A DNA stretch of 36,525 nt from an uncultured Bacilli bacterium (GTDB taxonomy: Bacteria > Bacillota_I > Bacilli_A > RF39 > UBA660). The stretch covers positions 1 through 36,525 of the forward strand of contig CALVRH010000012.1 in the NCBI GenBank assembly GCA_944358535.1. The letters are read 5' to 3'. Below are positions 1-8,513 of this stretch, piece after piece; position 1 is the first letter of the stretch, and each line of letters starts with the position of its first letter. The notes beneath the pieces are model-generated. The model did not search any database. It worked only from the letters and a program-made list of their open reading frames with translations, and was not told the origin of the DNA. The translations under genes were made by a program, and so were the position numbers.

Positions 1-36
1 GTTTTAGTACTATCTAAGATGACATAGATCTAAAAC
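1..36 (-). CRISPR. Leader-proximal CRISPR repeat (type II-A); array continues past the left edge
   Basis: This 36-nt unit has the usual type II-A repeat length and begins GTTTTAG on both strands. The crRNA sense is inferred to be the minus strand (GTTTTAGATCTATGTC...), for two reasons. The preceding minus-strand bases are the type II-A leader anchor ATTTGAG (37-43). The plus-strand tracrRNA anti-repeat near cas9 copies the complement of this unit almost end to end. Only one repeat and no spacer is visible, so array size and targets are unknown. The unit has CTAT/ATAG self-complementarity in its centre. Confidence 0.9.
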
Positions 37-112
37 CTCAAATTAAATTAGACCATGCCTTTACCAATACATAGAAATTTGGTTTACTTAGATAGTGCCT
101 ATGTCACCTTAA
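37..112 (-). promoter_or_regulatory. CRISPR leader between csn2 and the first repeat
   Basis: This is 76 nt between the csn2 stop and the first repeat. On the minus strand it ends ATTTGAG directly against the repeat. In Streptococcus type II-A loci this leader-anchoring sequence directs Cas1-Cas2 integration to the first repeat. The csn2-proximal part (87-110) contains two blocks matching the repeat in swapped order (see findings). I could not find a convincing -35/-10 pair inside the leader, so the array may be transcribed from the cas operon or from a non-consensus promoter. Confidence 0.8.
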
Positions 113-790
113 TTATAACATAAATTCATCTAAATCATTATCAATTATTAATTTTTGCTCATTTTGCAATGTGCTTTGATAGCTTTTGTTTTCTATTAAT
201 AATATTTTTATTTTATTATATATACAATATTTATAAAATTCTTCAACTTCTTCTTTTGTTAAATACTGTTTTAAATTTACAAATACTAATATTTTATTGA
301 TATTAAATGTTTTTTCTAAATCTATGATTAAATATAAGTTATTAAGTAAACTTTTACTAGTTTTAATTGTAGGTTTTATAAATTTAACTATTTGTTCTAA
401 ACTAAATTCATCATTAAAATTAATTGAAAAATCTATACTTTCAAAGGATTTCTTTATTTTTTCTATGAACTTTTTATATAATATAGCTAAGTCATTTACT
501 ATTTCTTCATTCGTATTCTCTATAATCATTTTTTGCAAATGAGTAGAATATTTTTTTAAAACTATGTCAAAATTAAAGTAATCAGTAATTAATAATATTT
601 TATTAAATAATTTAATTTCTTCTTTCTGATTATCAAAAAAATAAAAATCTTCAATCAATTCTCCAGCACTAATTTGAATAAAATTTACTATTGTTCGATA
701 AAAACATCCTTTGTTTTCTATTTCTAATGAAATTATTTTATCATCTGTTATTGGTAATATATTATCTAAATAATTTATTTTTATATTCAC
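113..790 (-). CDS. csn2: Csn2, type II-A spacer-acquisition protein
   Basis: At 225 residues this matches the short Csn2 family, a toroidal double-stranded-DNA-end-binding tetramer that works with Cas1, Cas2 and Cas9 during spacer acquisition. Identification rests on length, lysine/isoleucine-rich composition, the ending ...NDLDEFML and position as the last cas gene before the leader. Csn2 proteins diverge widely in sequence, so context carries most of the weight. The start is GTG at 790-788, overlapping the cas2 TGA stop by 4 nt (GTGA), a sign of translational coupling. Its presence makes the locus subtype II-A. Confidence 0.88.
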   Translation of the reverse strand: MNIKINYLDNILPITDDKIISLEIENKGCFYRTIVNFIQISAGELIEDFYFFDNQKEEIKLFNKILLITDYFNFDIVLKKYSTHLQKMIIENTNEEIVNDLAILYKKFIEKIKKSFESIDFSINFNDEFSLEQIVKFIKPTIKTSKSLLNNLYLIIDLEKTFNINKILVFVNLKQYLTKEEVEEFYKYCIYNKIKILLIENKSYQSTLQNEQKLIIDNDLDEFML

Positions 791-1092
791 AAAATTATTA
801 ATTTATCTTCGTTATTTATAATTTTTGTTGTAGAATTACCAATAACATATTCTATATTTGCATATTGTTTTTCCGTAACTGTTAACATTTGAATAATGCC
901 TTTATTAGGGGCATTTTTTCTAATCCTGTCTTCTAAGTAATTACTTTGAACTGAATTTAATGTTAATTTAGAATATACTGATTCTTGCATCATAATAAAT
1001 CCCTCATTTATTAAAAACTTTCTAAATTTATTATAATTTCTTTTATCTTTTGAATAAACATTTGGTAAATCAAAAAACACGATTGTTCTCAT
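787..1092 (-). CDS. cas2: Cas2, CRISPR adaptation protein
   Basis: The product is 101 residues starting MRTIVFFDLPNVYSKDKRNY, the ferredoxin-like Cas2 opening with the first-strand acidic residue in the FFDLP motif. Cas2 dimers bridge two Cas1 dimers in the integrase that inserts spacers. A longer reading to 1140 exists, but the ATG at 1092-1090 is preferred. It gives the normal family length, and the last codons of cas1 (GAGGGATAG) supply its ribosome binding site, so cas1 and cas2 are tightly coupled. It ends in TGA, overlapping the csn2 GTG start. Confidence 0.93.
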   Translation of the reverse strand: MRTIVFFDLPNVYSKDKRNYNKFRKFLINEGFIMMQESVYSKLTLNSVQSNYLEDRIRKNAPNKGIIQMLTVTEKQYANIEYVIGNSTTKIINNEDKLIIL

Positions 1093-1096
1093 AGCT

Positions 1097-1969
1097 CTAT
1101 CCCTCATAAAATACAAAATCCTTATACTGAGTATTGTCATCTAAGCATTGTAGTGTATTTTTAACGTAAAATGATATTATATCTTTTAATGTGTATTTTC
1201 TATTATTATAATTATATTTTGCGTTAAAAAGATTTACCAAGGATAATTTATACTCTGTATTAAAAGGTTGTTGTTGATTAAAATATACAAAGTTATCAAT
1301 TACAACTCTAAATGGTTCCATTAAATCACATGTTAAATTAAACTTATTATATTCGCTCTTGTGGTTTATTCCAACTTGTGTTAAATATCCATTACTGATT
1401 ACTTCTTTATTAATTGTCGAAAGTAAGATGGCATATCCATAATTTAGTTTGGCATTTATTTCATCATCTGCATTTCTTACAAATTTCTTAGTAAATAATG
1501 AATTAAAATATACTTTTGAGGCATGGGCTTCTCTATTGGTTTTATCATTTTCTGTTACTTCATCAATATATTTCATAAGTAAATCTGAATTTTCTGAATT
1601 AATTTTCTTCAATAAAAGCATTTGATTCATTATTTTATTTTTAACAATTAATTTCCACAAATTAGCTTTTTTCTTCTTTTCCCACTTTATTTGATTAGCT
1701 ATTTTTTTACTGGAATTATGGCAAATACCATATGGTGAAAGTTCTCCAAATGGATTATGCTTTTCATCACAAAATATAATATTTATTTTATTTGTTGCAA
1801 GTTCTTTTAAAAGATAGCTTGAGATAGATACTGAAATAGAATCAACTATTAAAGTATCTATCTCAGATAAATGAATGTATGTTTCATCCATATCATCTTT
1901 TACTACTAGAAAACGGTTTTTATAACTAATCTTATTGGCTTTATTAATGACTACTGTTCTAAAACTCAT
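1097..1969 (-). CDS. cas1: Cas1, CRISPR integrase
   Basis: This 290-residue Cas1 of type II starts MSFRTVVINKANKISYKNRF. It has the N-terminal beta domain motifs (IHLSEIDTLIVDS, then NIIFCDEKHNPFGELSPYG) and the C-terminal helical catalytic domain. Candidate metal ligands are visible in the regions around NREAHASKVYF (E/H), GINHKSEYNKFNLTCDLMEPFR (H and D/E), typical of the family E-H-D triad. Length is normal. The gene overlaps the cas9 end by 11 nt and is followed after 4 nt by cas2, in the canonical cas9-cas1-cas2-csn2 order. Confidence 0.95.
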   Translation of the reverse strand: MSFRTVVINKANKISYKNRFLVVKDDMDETYIHLSEIDTLIVDSISVSISSYLLKELATNKINIIFCDEKHNPFGELSPYGICHNSSKKIANQIKWEKKKKANLWKLIVKNKIMNQMLLLKKINSENSDLLMKYIDEVTENDKTNREAHASKVYFNSLFTKKFVRNADDEINAKLNYGYAILLSTINKEVISNGYLTQVGINHKSEYNKFNLTCDLMEPFRVVIDNFVYFNQQQPFNTEYKLSLVNLFNAKYNYNNRKYTLKDIISFYVKNTLQCLDDNTQYKDFVFYEG

Positions 1970-4900
1970 TTTTTACCTCATATATACCTGTTACTGATTT
2001 ATTTATTATTGTTGCGTGTGGAATATTTTTGTGATGTTTTCTTCCAAATGCCATAGAATATTTTGAATTTAATCCTTTTAAGTTAGCTGTTAAACTATTT
2101 GTTTTTAACAAATTAAACATCTGCTTAATTATTATTTCTTTTTCTTCCATAGTTAATGAATCAATATTATTAGTTTTAAACATTTCTTCCATGCTAGGAA
2201 GTAGATTTTCATATAATTTGTATTCTTTTTTTACCTTATTCACAATATACAGAACTATTTCTGACAAATCATTATTATAAATATTTTCCAAATCTTCTAC
2301 TGAGCAGTTTAATTTTTCAGATAAATATTTAGAAGAAAATTTTTGATTATTTAAAAGTTTACTTAATGTATATTTCCACTTATCTAAATGTTTGGAATCA
2401 ATTATAAATTCTTTGGCATTACATACTTCGACTGTATCGGTTGCTCCAACAAGATAACATATTTGATCTTCCCAATTTAATAATGTGTTAAAAGGAATTT
2501 TATCTTTAATAATGGTTACTCGATCATTTTCATTTAATTTTAATAAATCTTTAATATAATTTATTTTAATATTTTTATCATTTTTGCTTTGTTTATCAAT
2601 ATATATTGGAATACCTATCATTTTCTGATTTTCTTTTCCTTTATATTCGTAATTAACTTCTACAGCATAGCTAGGATTTTTTCCGCTATATGATCCATAC
2701 ATATTATAATCTAATCCTTTATGTAAGCTAGCACCTTTAGTTCCTTTTTTGGATATATTTTGTTCAAAAAATTCACCGGCTTTAATTTCTGTTTTTTTAC
2801 TAATTAGTCCATCAAAATGATGAAGATTTTTAATTACTGTATTGACAAATTTATTTCCTTCTACTATTACTTCTCCAGTATTTTTATCATATAGTGTTAT
2901 GCTTGGATCAATATTATTTACTACATATCCATATTTTTTTTGATATTTATAAGTACCATTTTTATAATTATTGTAATTTTCCTCTTTCAAAACATCAAAG
3001 TCAACTTTCTTTTTGTTTAGGAAATAAGTAACATAATAACCCATAGTTACTGCTAGATAAGCATCATGCATATGATGAAAATTATTTATATCACGAAATT
3101 TAAATTGCTCAAATTTTTTCCTGAATTCTGTTGATAAACTAGCCTTAAGATATATTACATTTGTATGTTTATAATAATTTTTTAAAATATTGGCAACATG
3201 TTTTACTATTTGACTCGTTTCAACAATTTGTCTATTGATAAATCCATTAATATCTTCTTCGCTATAACTATAACGCTTTAATCTTCCAATCTTTTTATCG
3301 GACATTAATCCACATTTTTTCAAATGATCCCACCAATAGAAATTAACCTCAGTTCTAAATTTTTTAGGTAAAATGAAACTAGCTGCTTTTTCTTGATTTT
3401 CTTCTCTTAATACTAATGCTTTATTATCTATTGAATCATCTTTGATAAGAGTTCTAGGAATGATATGGTCTACTTCGTAGATGCTTAAATTATTAATATC
3501 TAAAGGTATTCCTGAATATAAGCTTTTTCCTTCTTGTAAAAAATATAGATATAATTTTTCATCGTTAAATTCTTTTTCTTCACGTTGTTCTACCTCTTTT
3601 ATTAGAGTCTCATAATTATTTAATGTTGATTTTTGGTTTTTATACCATTCAAGAATTTTTTCTTTACGACTTTGTGTTCTTATTTTTTCTCTATTTTCTC
3701 TTGTCATTTCTACCATGATGTTTTCTGGTTCATAACCCATATATTTAACTATTTCATCTACAACTTTTAATGCTTGGTAAATACCTCTTTTGTTAGCCGG
3801 AGAAGTAGCTAATTCAGCAACTACTGAATAGTCTAATTTATTACTATCTTTTAGGCTATTAAAACTATCAATCATATTTTGAAATTTGTATTTAGGATTA
3901 TTAATTATTTGCATAAAGTTTTCATTGGTAGTTTCTAACAAATCCATTATAGATTTCTTTTCATTTTCTTCAGGATTTAGATAATATTTTGTTGTTAGAA
4001 GTTCTTTTGAAAGATGGCTCCATCCTTTATATTTTTTTGATAAGATTTTTTTAATTTGTTCATCACTTAGTTCAGAATAATTTTGATGAAGCTTTCTTTC
4101 TAAGATTGTATTATCTTCAAATATAGTTCGCCATTCAATAATTTCTTCAGCATTTTCCAATGTATAATTTGTTTTATCAAAAATGCCATTTTCGCCAAAA
4201 AAGTCGATGTAAGGTTTCATATTATTTGCAAATTTTTTATTGGCACTATAACCTGTAATTTCTGGAGTTTCTGAAGTTAAAAAATGTGTTGATGATTTTA
4301 TGTAATTTTTAAATTTTGTATCTGTAATATTTTCACTTGTTTTTAAAAATAAGTTTTTATAGATGTCATCAATTTGCTCTGGTAATAATCTTTGACCGGA
4401 TATTTTTATTTGTTTTAATTCATTTAATACTTTAAATTTTGAATATAAAATAGAATTAGCTGGTATAGCTGGTTTTCCGATTAAATATGTACATGTTGAA
4501 ATCATTCTTTTTATAAATAGTTCAGCGGATTTATCAAGATCAACTACTTCTTCAAAATTGTATGGAGTTATTTTGACATTTTCTTTTTTTCTGACCATCC
4601 AATAATTCTGATTATCTATATTTTGTTTATCTGTGTTTTTGCCAAGAGGACCTACATAGTATGGAATTCTAAATGTTAATAGTTTTTCTAATTTATATGT
4701 TCCGTTTACTTGCTGCTTAATAAATGGATAATATTTTCCTTGATTTTCAATTATTTCTAACAGTTCATATTTGTTTAGTTGGTATGGATATTTACCATTA
4801 TCAGAATCAGTAATTCTAGGCATAAAATCATCGTTTGCTATTCGACTTAAAACTTTATTATATTTACTTTTTATTTGTTCATCATTTAAATCAATAGAAT

Positions 4901-6032
4901 TATCTATAGCTTTAGTTATTATATTGGCAAATTCGCGAGCGCTAATTTCGTTACTTATATATTGGTCATATGAACATACATATTTGTCCTTAGTCCTGAA
5001 AATTTTATTATATTCTTTGCGATTATTGCGAAGTATTTCTTTAAGTGACTCTAAATCCTTTTTGTGTGTATTATATTTTGAAACCATGAGCTTAGATATA
5101 GATGTGTGCTGCTCTCCTTTAAATAATTCTTTAAGAAAAATCATGTCATAAAGTTCTTTAAATTCTTCTAAAATTTCAATGTTTTCACCTAATTGTTCTG
5201 ACAATTTATCAAAATTGTCCTCATAATTGCTTCCCTTAAAGGTTACTGATAGTTTTTCATCAGTTTCAATTAAAAATAATTTATTTAAATTGGCTTTATT
5301 TCCAATCATTAGTTTTGTAAATTCACTTGTAAATTCTTTAGTTGCATAGTCTTTTATTAAATTTTTTATTTTTAATTCTTTATCTTTTTTTGAGGTTTCT
5401 AAAAATGCATTACTTAATTTGCCAAAGTCTATTAATTCTACCGTTTCTGCATTTAAACCAAGTGAGTTTTCTTGACTTACAATGTTTATAAATATATCTT
5501 TAACTTTTTTCTCAATATTTAAATCTCTTACATTAAAGTCTCCAGCATATAAAAAATTACCTCTATTTTTTATTATATGATGAAGTCCTAAATATAATAA
5601 TCTTACATCTATTTTTTCTTGGCTTTCCATAAGTGCGGAACGCAAATGATATATTGTTGGATATTTTTTATTATATTGTTTTATTAATTCTTTTTCTTGT
5701 TTTGTAATTTTTATCGTTTTGTTTATAGTGTCTTTTTCATTATAAAAAGATTCTTTCATTTTTGTGAAAAAATTGCTATCTACTTTATTTATTTCATCTT
5801 CAAAGATCTCTCTAAGTAATTTTATTCTTTCTCTTCTTCTATCAAATCTTCGGCGGGCACTTCTAAATAAACGTCTACTAGCTGCTGTTTGTGCTTCATC
5901 AAATAATCTTACACCCCAAAGTTTTTTATTTCCCTTTCTTATTATATTAAAATTGCTTGAGCCTACAACTGCCCATCCCACTGAATTTGTTCCAATATCT
6001 AATCCAATATTGTATTTTTGTTTTTCTAACAT
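1959..6032 (-). CDS. cas9: Cas9, type II-A RNA-guided endonuclease
   Basis: This 1357-residue Cas9 is close to the size of the Streptococcus pyogenes enzyme. Visible elements in order are RuvC-I with D12 (NIGLDIGTNSVGWAV), the arginine-rich bridge helix (about 51-75), a long alpha recognition lobe, RuvC-II with E775 (NIMVEMTRENR), HNH with H856 (YEVDHIIPRTLIKDDSIDNK), RuvC-III with H987 and D990 (HHMHDAY), and a C-terminal PAM-interacting domain. All nuclease residues are present, so both DNA strands should be cut. The segment aligning with the Sp RKR PAM-reading motif reads FGRKHHKN (R1331, K1332, H1333). The second arginine is replaced by histidine, so the PAM is probably not plain NGG. SD AAAGGAG precedes the ATG. 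Confidence 0.97.
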   Translation of the reverse strand: MLEKQKYNIGLDIGTNSVGWAVVGSSNFNIIRKGNKKLWGVRLFDEAQTAASRRLFRSARRRFDRRRERIKLLREIFEDEINKVDSNFFTKMKESFYNEKDTINKTIKITKQEKELIKQYNKKYPTIYHLRSALMESQEKIDVRLLYLGLHHIIKNRGNFLYAGDFNVRDLNIEKKVKDIFINIVSQENSLGLNAETVELIDFGKLSNAFLETSKKDKELKIKNLIKDYATKEFTSEFTKLMIGNKANLNKLFLIETDEKLSVTFKGSNYEDNFDKLSEQLGENIEILEEFKELYDMIFLKELFKGEQHTSISKLMVSKYNTHKKDLESLKEILRNNRKEYNKIFRTKDKYVCSYDQYISNEISAREFANIITKAIDNSIDLNDEQIKSKYNKVLSRIANDDFMPRITDSDNGKYPYQLNKYELLEIIENQGKYYPFIKQQVNGTYKLEKLLTFRIPYYVGPLGKNTDKQNIDNQNYWMVRKKENVKITPYNFEEVVDLDKSAELFIKRMISTCTYLIGKPAIPANSILYSKFKVLNELKQIKISGQRLLPEQIDDIYKNLFLKTSENITDTKFKNYIKSSTHFLTSETPEITGYSANKKFANNMKPYIDFFGENGIFDKTNYTLENAEEIIEWRTIFEDNTILERKLHQNYSELSDEQIKKILSKKYKGWSHLSKELLTTKYYLNPEENEKKSIMDLLETTNENFMQIINNPKYKFQNMIDSFNSLKDSNKLDYSVVAELATSPANKRGIYQALKVVDEIVKYMGYEPENIMVEMTRENREKIRTQSRKEKILEWYKNQKSTLNNYETLIKEVEQREEKEFNDEKLYLYFLQEGKSLYSGIPLDINNLSIYEVDHIIPRTLIKDDSIDNKALVLREENQEKAASFILPKKFRTEVNFYWWDHLKKCGLMSDKKIGRLKRYSYSEEDINGFINRQIVETSQIVKHVANILKNYYKHTNVIYLKASLSTEFRKKFEQFKFRDINNFHHMHDAYLAVTMGYYVTYFLNKKKVDFDVLKEENYNNYKNGTYKYQKKYGYVVNNIDPSITLYDKNTGEVIVEGNKFVNTVIKNLHHFDGLISKKTEIKAGEFFEQNISKKGTKGASLHKGLDYNMYGSYSGKNPSYAVEVNYEYKGKENQKMIGIPIYIDKQSKNDKNIKINYIKDLLKLNENDRVTIIKDKIPFNTLLNWEDQICYLVGATDTVEVCNAKEFIIDSKHLDKWKYTLSKLLNNQKFSSKYLSEKLNCSVEDLENIYNNDLSEIVLYIVNKVKKEYKLYENLLPSMEEMFKTNNIDSLTMEEKEIIIKQMFNLLKTNSLTANLKGLNSKYSMAFGRKHHKNIPHATIINKSVTGIYEVKNEF

Positions 6033-6051: not shown

Positions 6052-6080
6052 TTGACAAGACAATATTTTTTTGATATATT
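6052..6080 (+). promoter_or_regulatory. Promoter of the tracrRNA
   Basis: A perfect -35 TTGACA (6052-6057), a spacer of exactly 17 nt and a -10 TATATT (6075-6080) place a start at about 6087, right at the anti-repeat. It lies in the 5' flank of cas9 and points away from it, so RNA polymerases on the two promoters may interfere. Confidence 0.85.
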
Positions 6081-6086
6081 TTATTT

Positions 6087-6181
6087 GTCTTAGTACTATT
6101 TAAGATGACATAGAGAGTTAAAATAAAGGTTTAACCCTAAATACTTATTTAATTAAGATGATGCGTTGGCATCTTTTTTTT
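6087..6181 (+). ncRNA. tracrRNA
   Basis: The anti-repeat (about 6087-6121) reproduces the plus-strand repeat with few changes and so pairs with the minus-sense crRNA. It keeps the bulge layout of the S. pyogenes duplex (ATAG-AGAG-TTAAAAT). After it come a nexus-like hairpin (AAGG-TTTA-ACCC, about 6127-6137), a small stem-loop (TAAAT-ACTT-ATTTA, 6138-6151), and a terminator hairpin (GATGC/GCATC, 6160-6173) followed by eight T. The RNA would be about 95 nt and would be processed with the pre-crRNA by RNase III. It is divergent from cas9. Confidence 0.93.
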
Positions 6182-7305: not shown

Positions 7306-7332
7306 AAAAAAATGAGCTTTGAACTCATTTTT
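7306..7332 (-). terminator. Intrinsic terminator of metK
   Basis: On the minus strand AAATGAG, loop TTCAAAG, CTCATTT then a T run. The stem begins at the metK stop codon. Confidence 0.75.
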
Positions 7333-8353
7333 AGTTTGTAAAATGACCATATTTGGCTTTATCTTCATAGCATATATTATATAGATTTAAATCTTTAATT
7401 ATGTTTTTTGGTGTACATTCTTCATATAGTTTTTCTGGAACTTCTATATTTCCATTATTACTATCAATGTATATGGCAAGTGGTTTTTCTAGGCCAATAG
7501 CATAACTAATTTGAACTTGACACCATTTTAAGTTATATTTTTTTAAGTATTCTTTAGCTATTTCTCTAGCTTTATATGCGGCACTCCTATCTACTTTACT
7601 TGGGTCTTTGCCACTGAATGCCCCACCACCTACTTTCGCAAAGGAATGGTAGCTATCGACAACTATTTTTCTTCCAGTAAGTCCAGCATCTCCATCAAAG
7701 CCACCGATGTAAAACCTGCCTGTTGGATTGATTAAAAAGTTTTCTATTTCTATATTGTACTTTTTACATATATTGATACATTTTTCTTTTATTAAATTAT
7801 CAATGTAATCTCGGTGTTTTTCATCATTTTGGTATGAGATTGTAAAATATTTTATTTTTTGAAGTTTCATTTCATCATCGTAATAACCAGTGATTTGAGC
7901 TTTGCCATCTGGTTTTAAGTATGGGCATTCTTTTCTTTTATTATCATACCATTTACTTAAGGTTTGCAAGATAACCATGGCTGTTGGTAACATTTCTTCT
8001 GTGTCATTGCAGGCATAACCAAACATCATACCTTGGTCGCCGGCTCCTCCGACTTCGTCATTAGTACCTAATGCAATATCAGGGCTTTGAATGCCTAAGT
8101 TGTTTATTATTTCATAATTTGTGTCATAGCCAATGTCGGTTAATACTCTGTTAACTATATCTTTTATGCTTATACTTGCTTTTGAGGTTACTTCACCGGT
8201 AATAAAAATCTTACCTTTTCCTCCCATAACCTCAATACCACATCTTGAATGTGGGTCTTCTTTTAAATATGCATCTAATAATGCATCACTTATTTGGTCA
8301 CAGACTTTATCTGGATGACCACGAAATACAATTTCGTTTGAATATAATTTCAT
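7331..8353 (-). CDS. metK: S-adenosylmethionine synthetase (compact form)
   Basis: It makes SAM from methionine and ATP. Family signatures are all present: GHPDKVCDQISDA near the N-terminus, GAGDQGMMFGYA, FLINPTGRFYIGG, GDAGLTGRKIVVD, and the loop GGGAFSGKDPSKVDRSAAY. At 340 residues it is shorter than the usual 380-400. Some loops are trimmed, and it stops right after the KYGHF motif (KYGHFTN), lacking the usual tail with the FxWE motif. The ATG at 8353 is chosen because GGGAGG lies just upstream and the protein then starts MKLYSNEIVFRGHPDK. Expression is controlled by a SAM-I riboswitch directly upstream, a feedback loop on the product. Confidence 0.94.
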   Translation of the reverse strand: MKLYSNEIVFRGHPDKVCDQISDALLDAYLKEDPHSRCGIEVMGGKGKIFITGEVTSKASISIKDIVNRVLTDIGYDTNYEIINNLGIQSPDIALGTNDEVGGAGDQGMMFGYACNDTEEMLPTAMVILQTLSKWYDNKRKECPYLKPDGKAQITGYYDDEMKLQKIKYFTISYQNDEKHRDYIDNLIKEKCINICKKYNIEIENFLINPTGRFYIGGFDGDAGLTGRKIVVDSYHSFAKVGGGAFSGKDPSKVDRSAAYKAREIAKEYLKKYNLKWCQVQISYAIGLEKPLAIYIDSNNGNIEVPEKLYEECTPKNIIKDLNLYNICYEDKAKYGHFTN

Positions 8354-8384
8354 AATACCTCCCTCTATAATGAAACAGAATAAA

Positions 8385-8498
8385 GAAAAAAACAAGCGAG
8401 GAACTTGTTTTCTAGTTCCTTATCGTCCGGCTTTAGCACCTAACTTAATAGGTTGCTGTGATATCATAGGGCCAGTCCCTCCATCACTCTTTATAAGG
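8385..8498 (-). promoter_or_regulatory. SAM-I (S-box) riboswitch with transcription terminator
   Basis: Read on the minus strand, the leader carries the S-box core GGAGGGACTGGCCC (8482-8469), CAGCAACC, and GGTGCTAAAGCC, closed by P1 CCTTAT (8498-8493) with ATAAGG (8423-8418). The aptamer spans 8418-8498. An antiterminator AGGAACT (8420-8414)/AGTTCCT (8405-8399) excludes P1. The terminator AACAAG/CTTGTT (8409-8391) is followed by a T run. When SAM binds P1 forms, the antiterminator is lost and transcription stops. This is an OFF switch ahead of metK. Confidence 0.93.
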
Positions 8499-8513
8499 TT
8501 TCATTACATATAT

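Follow-up and report, generated by a model that had tools for sequence, protein, structure and literature searches.

The leader of a type II-A CRISPR array in an uncultured Bacilli bacterium carries the two halves of the tracrRNA anti-repeat in swapped order. These halves are probably (at a probability of roughly 0.75) two arms of the leader RNA that pair with the array's own repeats, with arm A on a later repeat, likely the second (R2), and with the newest crRNA favoured as a result. The element is real, conserved and RNA-pairing, and is of a known kind; its permuted layout is explained, and a hairpin within the leader (H) is possibly a new part.

The window, meaning the whole stretch of DNA analysed (36,525 nucleotides), is one complete contig (G000:C12) of an assembly comprising 55 contigs and a 1.33-Mb genome. 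Its left end holds the locus on the minus strand, in the order cas9, cas1, cas2, csn2, leader and first repeat (R1). Assignment to type II-A follows from the cas9-cas1-cas2-csn2 set, a tracrRNA and an array adjoining csn2. The features are as follows.

1-36, minus strand: repeat R1, GTTTTAGATCTATGTCATCTTAGATAGTACTAAAAC; the contig ends here, with spacer 1 and R2 outside the window
37-111, minus strand: CRISPR leader, 75 nt, with TTTGAG at its end, directly abutting R1
48-59, minus strand: arm C, GGCATGGTCTAA, facing the 5' half of R1 (cognate-repeat test; fold)
63-83, minus strand: hairpin H, stem ACCAA/TTGGT; loop (68-78) ATTTCTATGTA, complementary to tracrRNA ACATAGAG
87-96, minus strand: arm B, ACTATCTAAG, facing the 3' half of R1 (cognate-repeat test, p 1e-5; fold)
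99-110, minus strand: arm A, AAGGTGACATAG, facing the 5' half of a downstream repeat, presumptively R2 (cognate-repeat test, p 1e-5; fold)
112-120, minus strand: extended -10 element, TGTTATAAT, overlapping the csn2 stop codon; predicted leader RNA start near 103-107
113-790, minus strand: csn2, stop codon 115-113 (TIGR01866, 116.9 bits)
787-1140, minus strand: cas2 (TIGR01573)
1097-1969, minus strand: cas1, type II (TIGR03639)
1959-6032, minus strand: cas9 (TIGR01865, 798 bits)
6088-6179, plus strand: tracrRNA, with anti-repeat, nexus GTTAAAATAAAGG and terminator (RF02348, 33.1 bits, under the gathering score)

A promoter-like TTGACA-17-TATATT for the tracrRNA lies at 6052-6080. A search of the same genome for further repeats, including R2, returned the repeat in single copy only, at the contig end, and no relatives of csn2 were found in viral contigs. 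Elsewhere in the window, a SAM riboswitch (RF00162, 67.4 bits; 8417-8499, minus strand) is located upstream of metK (7331-8395).

Read on the minus strand, the region runs TATAAT (117-112), T, AAGGTGACATAG (110-99), GC, ACTATCTAAG (96-87), and the same halves occur in the tracrRNA in the order ACTATTTAAG-ATGACATAG. Letters, coordinates and swapped order are thus as the original prediction gave them, and its pairing figures are also correct: arm A matches the repeat part CTATGTCATCTT at 12 of 12 positions, with one G-U pair, and arm B matches CTTAGATAGT at 10 of 10. That prediction had placed the sequences at the end of the csn2 mRNA. They do adjoin csn2, but they begin just past its stop codon and not within its coding sequence, and so belong to the leader. 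When the leader was shuffled 20,000 times with dinucleotide composition preserved, a match at the level of A appeared in 8 shuffles, one at the level of B in 200, and both together in none; taken with the cognate-repeat test described below, complementarity of the leader to R1 exceeds chance. Measured against a tracrRNA, the leader element has its halves swapped where a continuous anti-repeat would be expected, and a nexus is absent 3' of it.

Relatives were taken from loci of the same genus, the same family and GTDB contigs whose Cas9 is about 40-79% identical, and yielded 43 distinct leaders, 42 of which entered the tests. The nearest ones in the public collection are labelled as uncultured Bacilli, Mollicutes or Tenericutes bacteria. 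Their common layout consists of an extended -10-like element, A, B, hairpin H (in most), C, TTTGAG and R1. The blocks that the original prediction proposed to look for in relatives are present: arm B reaches at least 7 bp in every tabulated system, and a search for arm A in the segment upstream of B gave a run of 7 bp or more in 35 of 42 leaders. Arm A is weak or missing in the other seven (G010, G451, G335, G356, L105, L128 and L202). Two genomes have two arrays apiece, with a leader copy at every one (L195 and L206 in G264; L202 and L208 in G447), and in L195 the sequence upstream is not a csn2 end, yet A, B, H and C-like segments are kept.

In the cognate-repeat test for co-variation, leader segments were scored on their own repeat and on the repeats of other systems. 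Across 42 leaders, the pairing score was 8.79 on the cognate repeat versus 7.08 on non-cognate repeats for arm A (z 8.1), 10.77 versus 9.29 for arm B (z 8.4) and 8.23 versus 7.10 for arm C (z 5.6), with p 1e-5 in each case, which is the floor of a permutation that ignores phylogeny. Since phylogeny lies outside the permutation, the independent co-variation events are fewer than the systems counted; nevertheless, shared ancestry by itself does not easily produce a better fit to a system's own repeat. A script counted the pairs by register, because a MAFFT alignment of the leaders misplaced arm A. In the resulting tables, two-sided changes face, for example, arm A at repeat positions 9, 15, 16 and 19 and arm B at positions 18, 19, 22 and 26; opposite arm A, repeat position 15 is A-T in 23 cases and T-A in 6. 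Individual systems illustrate the same point, with repeat CTATGACATC facing arm A GATGTCATA in G480, ATGACAATT facing AATTGTCAT in L119, and TTCTATGACATT facing AATGTTATAGAA in L115.

These data bear on three other accounts of the element. The original prediction had offered, among others, a crRNA- or tracr-like element, which survives as a repeat-pairing RNA element, and a decoy or a recombination remnant, both of which are disfavoured by arms that are kept in the family and co-vary with their own repeat. Degenerate repeats are known beside arrays, G172 being an example, and a leader of this kind could in principle be a degenerate repeat or what repeat recombination left behind; with the layout kept in dozens of species and co-variation that indicates selection, there is next to no likelihood of this. 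(In L092, from G172, the leader seems to be replaced in part by a degenerate repeat and a spacer-like stretch.) Either half is able to pair with a repeat in trans, and the leader RNA might titrate crRNA repeats or mimic tracrRNA, damping Cas9. That is quite improbable, given that the swapped order precludes one continuous duplex on a single repeat, that nexus and terminator are absent downstream, and that arms and partners are in cis and some tens of bases apart; it also leaves C and H unexplained. An element acting in DNA, at which Cas1-Cas2-Csn2 would dock for spacer integration and the repeat-like inverted pieces would be protein sites, is marginally easier to entertain but still improbable. 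The TTTGAG leader end is conserved beside R1, and conservation of ATTTGAG at the end of II-A leaders is known (PMC5382924). A protein site, however, need not track changes in the repeat, many G-U pairs are tolerated in the arms, and the stem of H varies freely.

The reading of the halves as arms on two repeats accounts for their order. For the window, whose own sequence ends in R1, leader-R1-spacer-R2 was folded with 20 random spacers. The two-repeat fold gave 0.95 for A with R2, 0.94 for B with R1, 0.93 for C with R1 and 0.01 for A with R1. Folds with real spacers agree for G030, G343, G404, G480 and others; the same picture was not obtained for G069, G428, G451 and G152. With three repeats, A is shared by R2 and R3 and hardly ever falls on R1, the equilibrium having no preference for R2. 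Within this nested model R1 is practically eliminated as the partner of arm A and R2 is not singled out; the order of synthesis would favour R2, and we infer that it is the likely partner. The arms A and B are swapped relative to the tracrRNA because nested pairing must face the 3' half of R1 and then the 5' half of R2, and the canonical order of the halves would cover R1 only. A pseudoknot that puts both arms on R1 was dropped on a geometric argument, as the partner halves are adjacent and almost no linker would be available across a 10-bp helix. In many of the two-repeat folds, judged by eye, the repeat bound by A keeps its 3' half unpaired, and it is possible that this half acts as a toehold for tracrRNA.

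A leader-repeat structure and spacer prioritization have reportedly been described for the type II-A system of Streptococcus pyogenes by Liao et al. (2022, Nat Microbiol 7:530). The original prediction that nothing known in type II-A leaders calls for such an element therefore does not hold, as leader-repeat pairing in type II-A has been reported (Liao et al. 2022, as related in PMC13187072 and PMC12080349). According to those two accounts, pairing of the II-A leader RNA with the first repeat creates a hairpin; this hinders hybridisation of tracrRNA, blocks extraneous crRNA (ecrRNA) and makes the newest crRNA mature faster, possibly by direct contact with the second repeat. As related there, the S. 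pyogenes system shares with the window a II-A Cas9 locus, a leader directly upstream of R1, leader-R1 pairing and a possible contact with the repeat past the newest spacer. Compared by description, the window differs in having a separate, co-varying 5' arm A on a downstream repeat, an arm C on the remainder of R1, and a hairpin between B and C whose loop is complementary to tracrRNA. A repeat of the S. pyogenes type, sought as a positive control in 395 genomes of the class, had no match. In type VI (Cas13) arrays, too, the first repeat is hidden in a hairpin of the leader RNA, which stops ecrRNA; these arrays have a different effector and no tracrRNA, and the account given in PMC13187072 describes no arm on a second repeat.

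More distant II-A loci (Lachnospiraceae, other Clostridia, Eggerthellaceae and others) commonly contain B-type complementarity, and among them the A-type match upstream of B does not reach significance. Two Clostridia leaders, L143 and L175, are complementary to R1, as here, but unlike the window's family they carry a nearly continuous anti-repeat in the canonical B-then-A order, on R1 only (partly judged by eye). From these sequences, the separate upstream arm A looks like a family-level variant. It may be that B and C alone matter, as a simple hairpin of leader and R1 that keeps ecrRNA from forming, and that A has an accessory role, taking up whichever repeat is exposed and not R2 in particular. 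Such a division of labour has a minor but real chance of being correct: B spans the distant II-A groups and A does not, 7 of 42 relatives lack a good A, and the three-repeat folds split A between R2 and R3. Against it, co-variation with the repeat is no weaker in the segment upstream of B than in B itself.

Whether arm A is available in full depends on where the RNA begins. The 75-nt leader is probably transcribed from the extended -10 box that overlaps the csn2 stop codon, and a TG followed by a -10-like hexamer is found at or near that codon in 36 of 43 relatives. An RNA start at G105 or later would leave arm A with at most 7 bp. When the 5' end was trimmed in the fold model, the bridge between A and its repeat survived loss of 6 nt and was abolished at 7.

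In the two-arm reading, transcription of the leader RNA would begin just past csn2. As the pre-crRNA emerged, B and C would jointly sequester R1, and tracrRNA could therefore not use R1 for an extraneous, leader-derived crRNA. Arm A, lying 5' of B, would then take the 5' half of a repeat further on, most likely R2, forming a bridge with spacer 1 enclosed. If S. pyogenes is a guide, this bridge might help tracrRNA to load and RNase III to cleave at R2, and hence favour the newest crRNA. On the other side, a helix on R2 should itself compete with tracrRNA.

In the region of hairpin H, the motif CTATG occurs between B and C in 29 of 37 leaders, compared with a mean of 2 and a maximum of 6 in shuffles. 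It usually sits in a hairpin loop, on 34 distinct stems (the automatic choice took another stem in a few systems). The loop, with its conserved UCUAUG, is complementary to the tracrRNA around CATAGAG, and loops fit their cognate tracrRNA better than others at p 0.0042 over positions 16-36 and at p 8e-5 over positions 21-33, a range picked post hoc. Of the 31 systems with TCTAT, 30 have a pyrimidine (C or T) immediately 5' of it, matching purines of the tracrRNA. Where the tracrRNA departs from the usual sequence the loop follows: tracrRNA CATAGAAAG faces loop TTTCTATG in G361b, L109 and L114, tracrRNA CATACAG faces TTGTATG in L128, and in G356 the leader's TTAACTATG is the exact complement of tracrRNA CATAGTTAA. 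Neither mimicry of the repeat (p 0.3) nor a switch in which H pairs with arm A (p 0.76) was supported as the source of the match. Tentatively, the leader could recruit tracrRNA, with the YUCUAUG loop pairing over 7-9 nt at the 3' end of the anti-repeat and holding the tracrRNA near R2 for hand-over. We know of no role for a leader hairpin with a variable stem and a UCUAUG loop, and docking of tracrRNA by H may be regarded as a lead, short of a demonstration.

An odd, permuted sequence is thus accounted for by simple folding geometry. The co-variation is evolutionary evidence in favour of a leader arm extending beyond R1, a contact put forward as "possible" in the accounts of the S. pyogenes work (PMC13187072, PMC12080349), and the relatives supply dozens of natural variants for testing. 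More broadly, the findings suggest that in Cas9 arrays the leader RNA may have a structure that sets two repeats, and perhaps tracrRNA as well, in an arrangement favouring the newest spacer.
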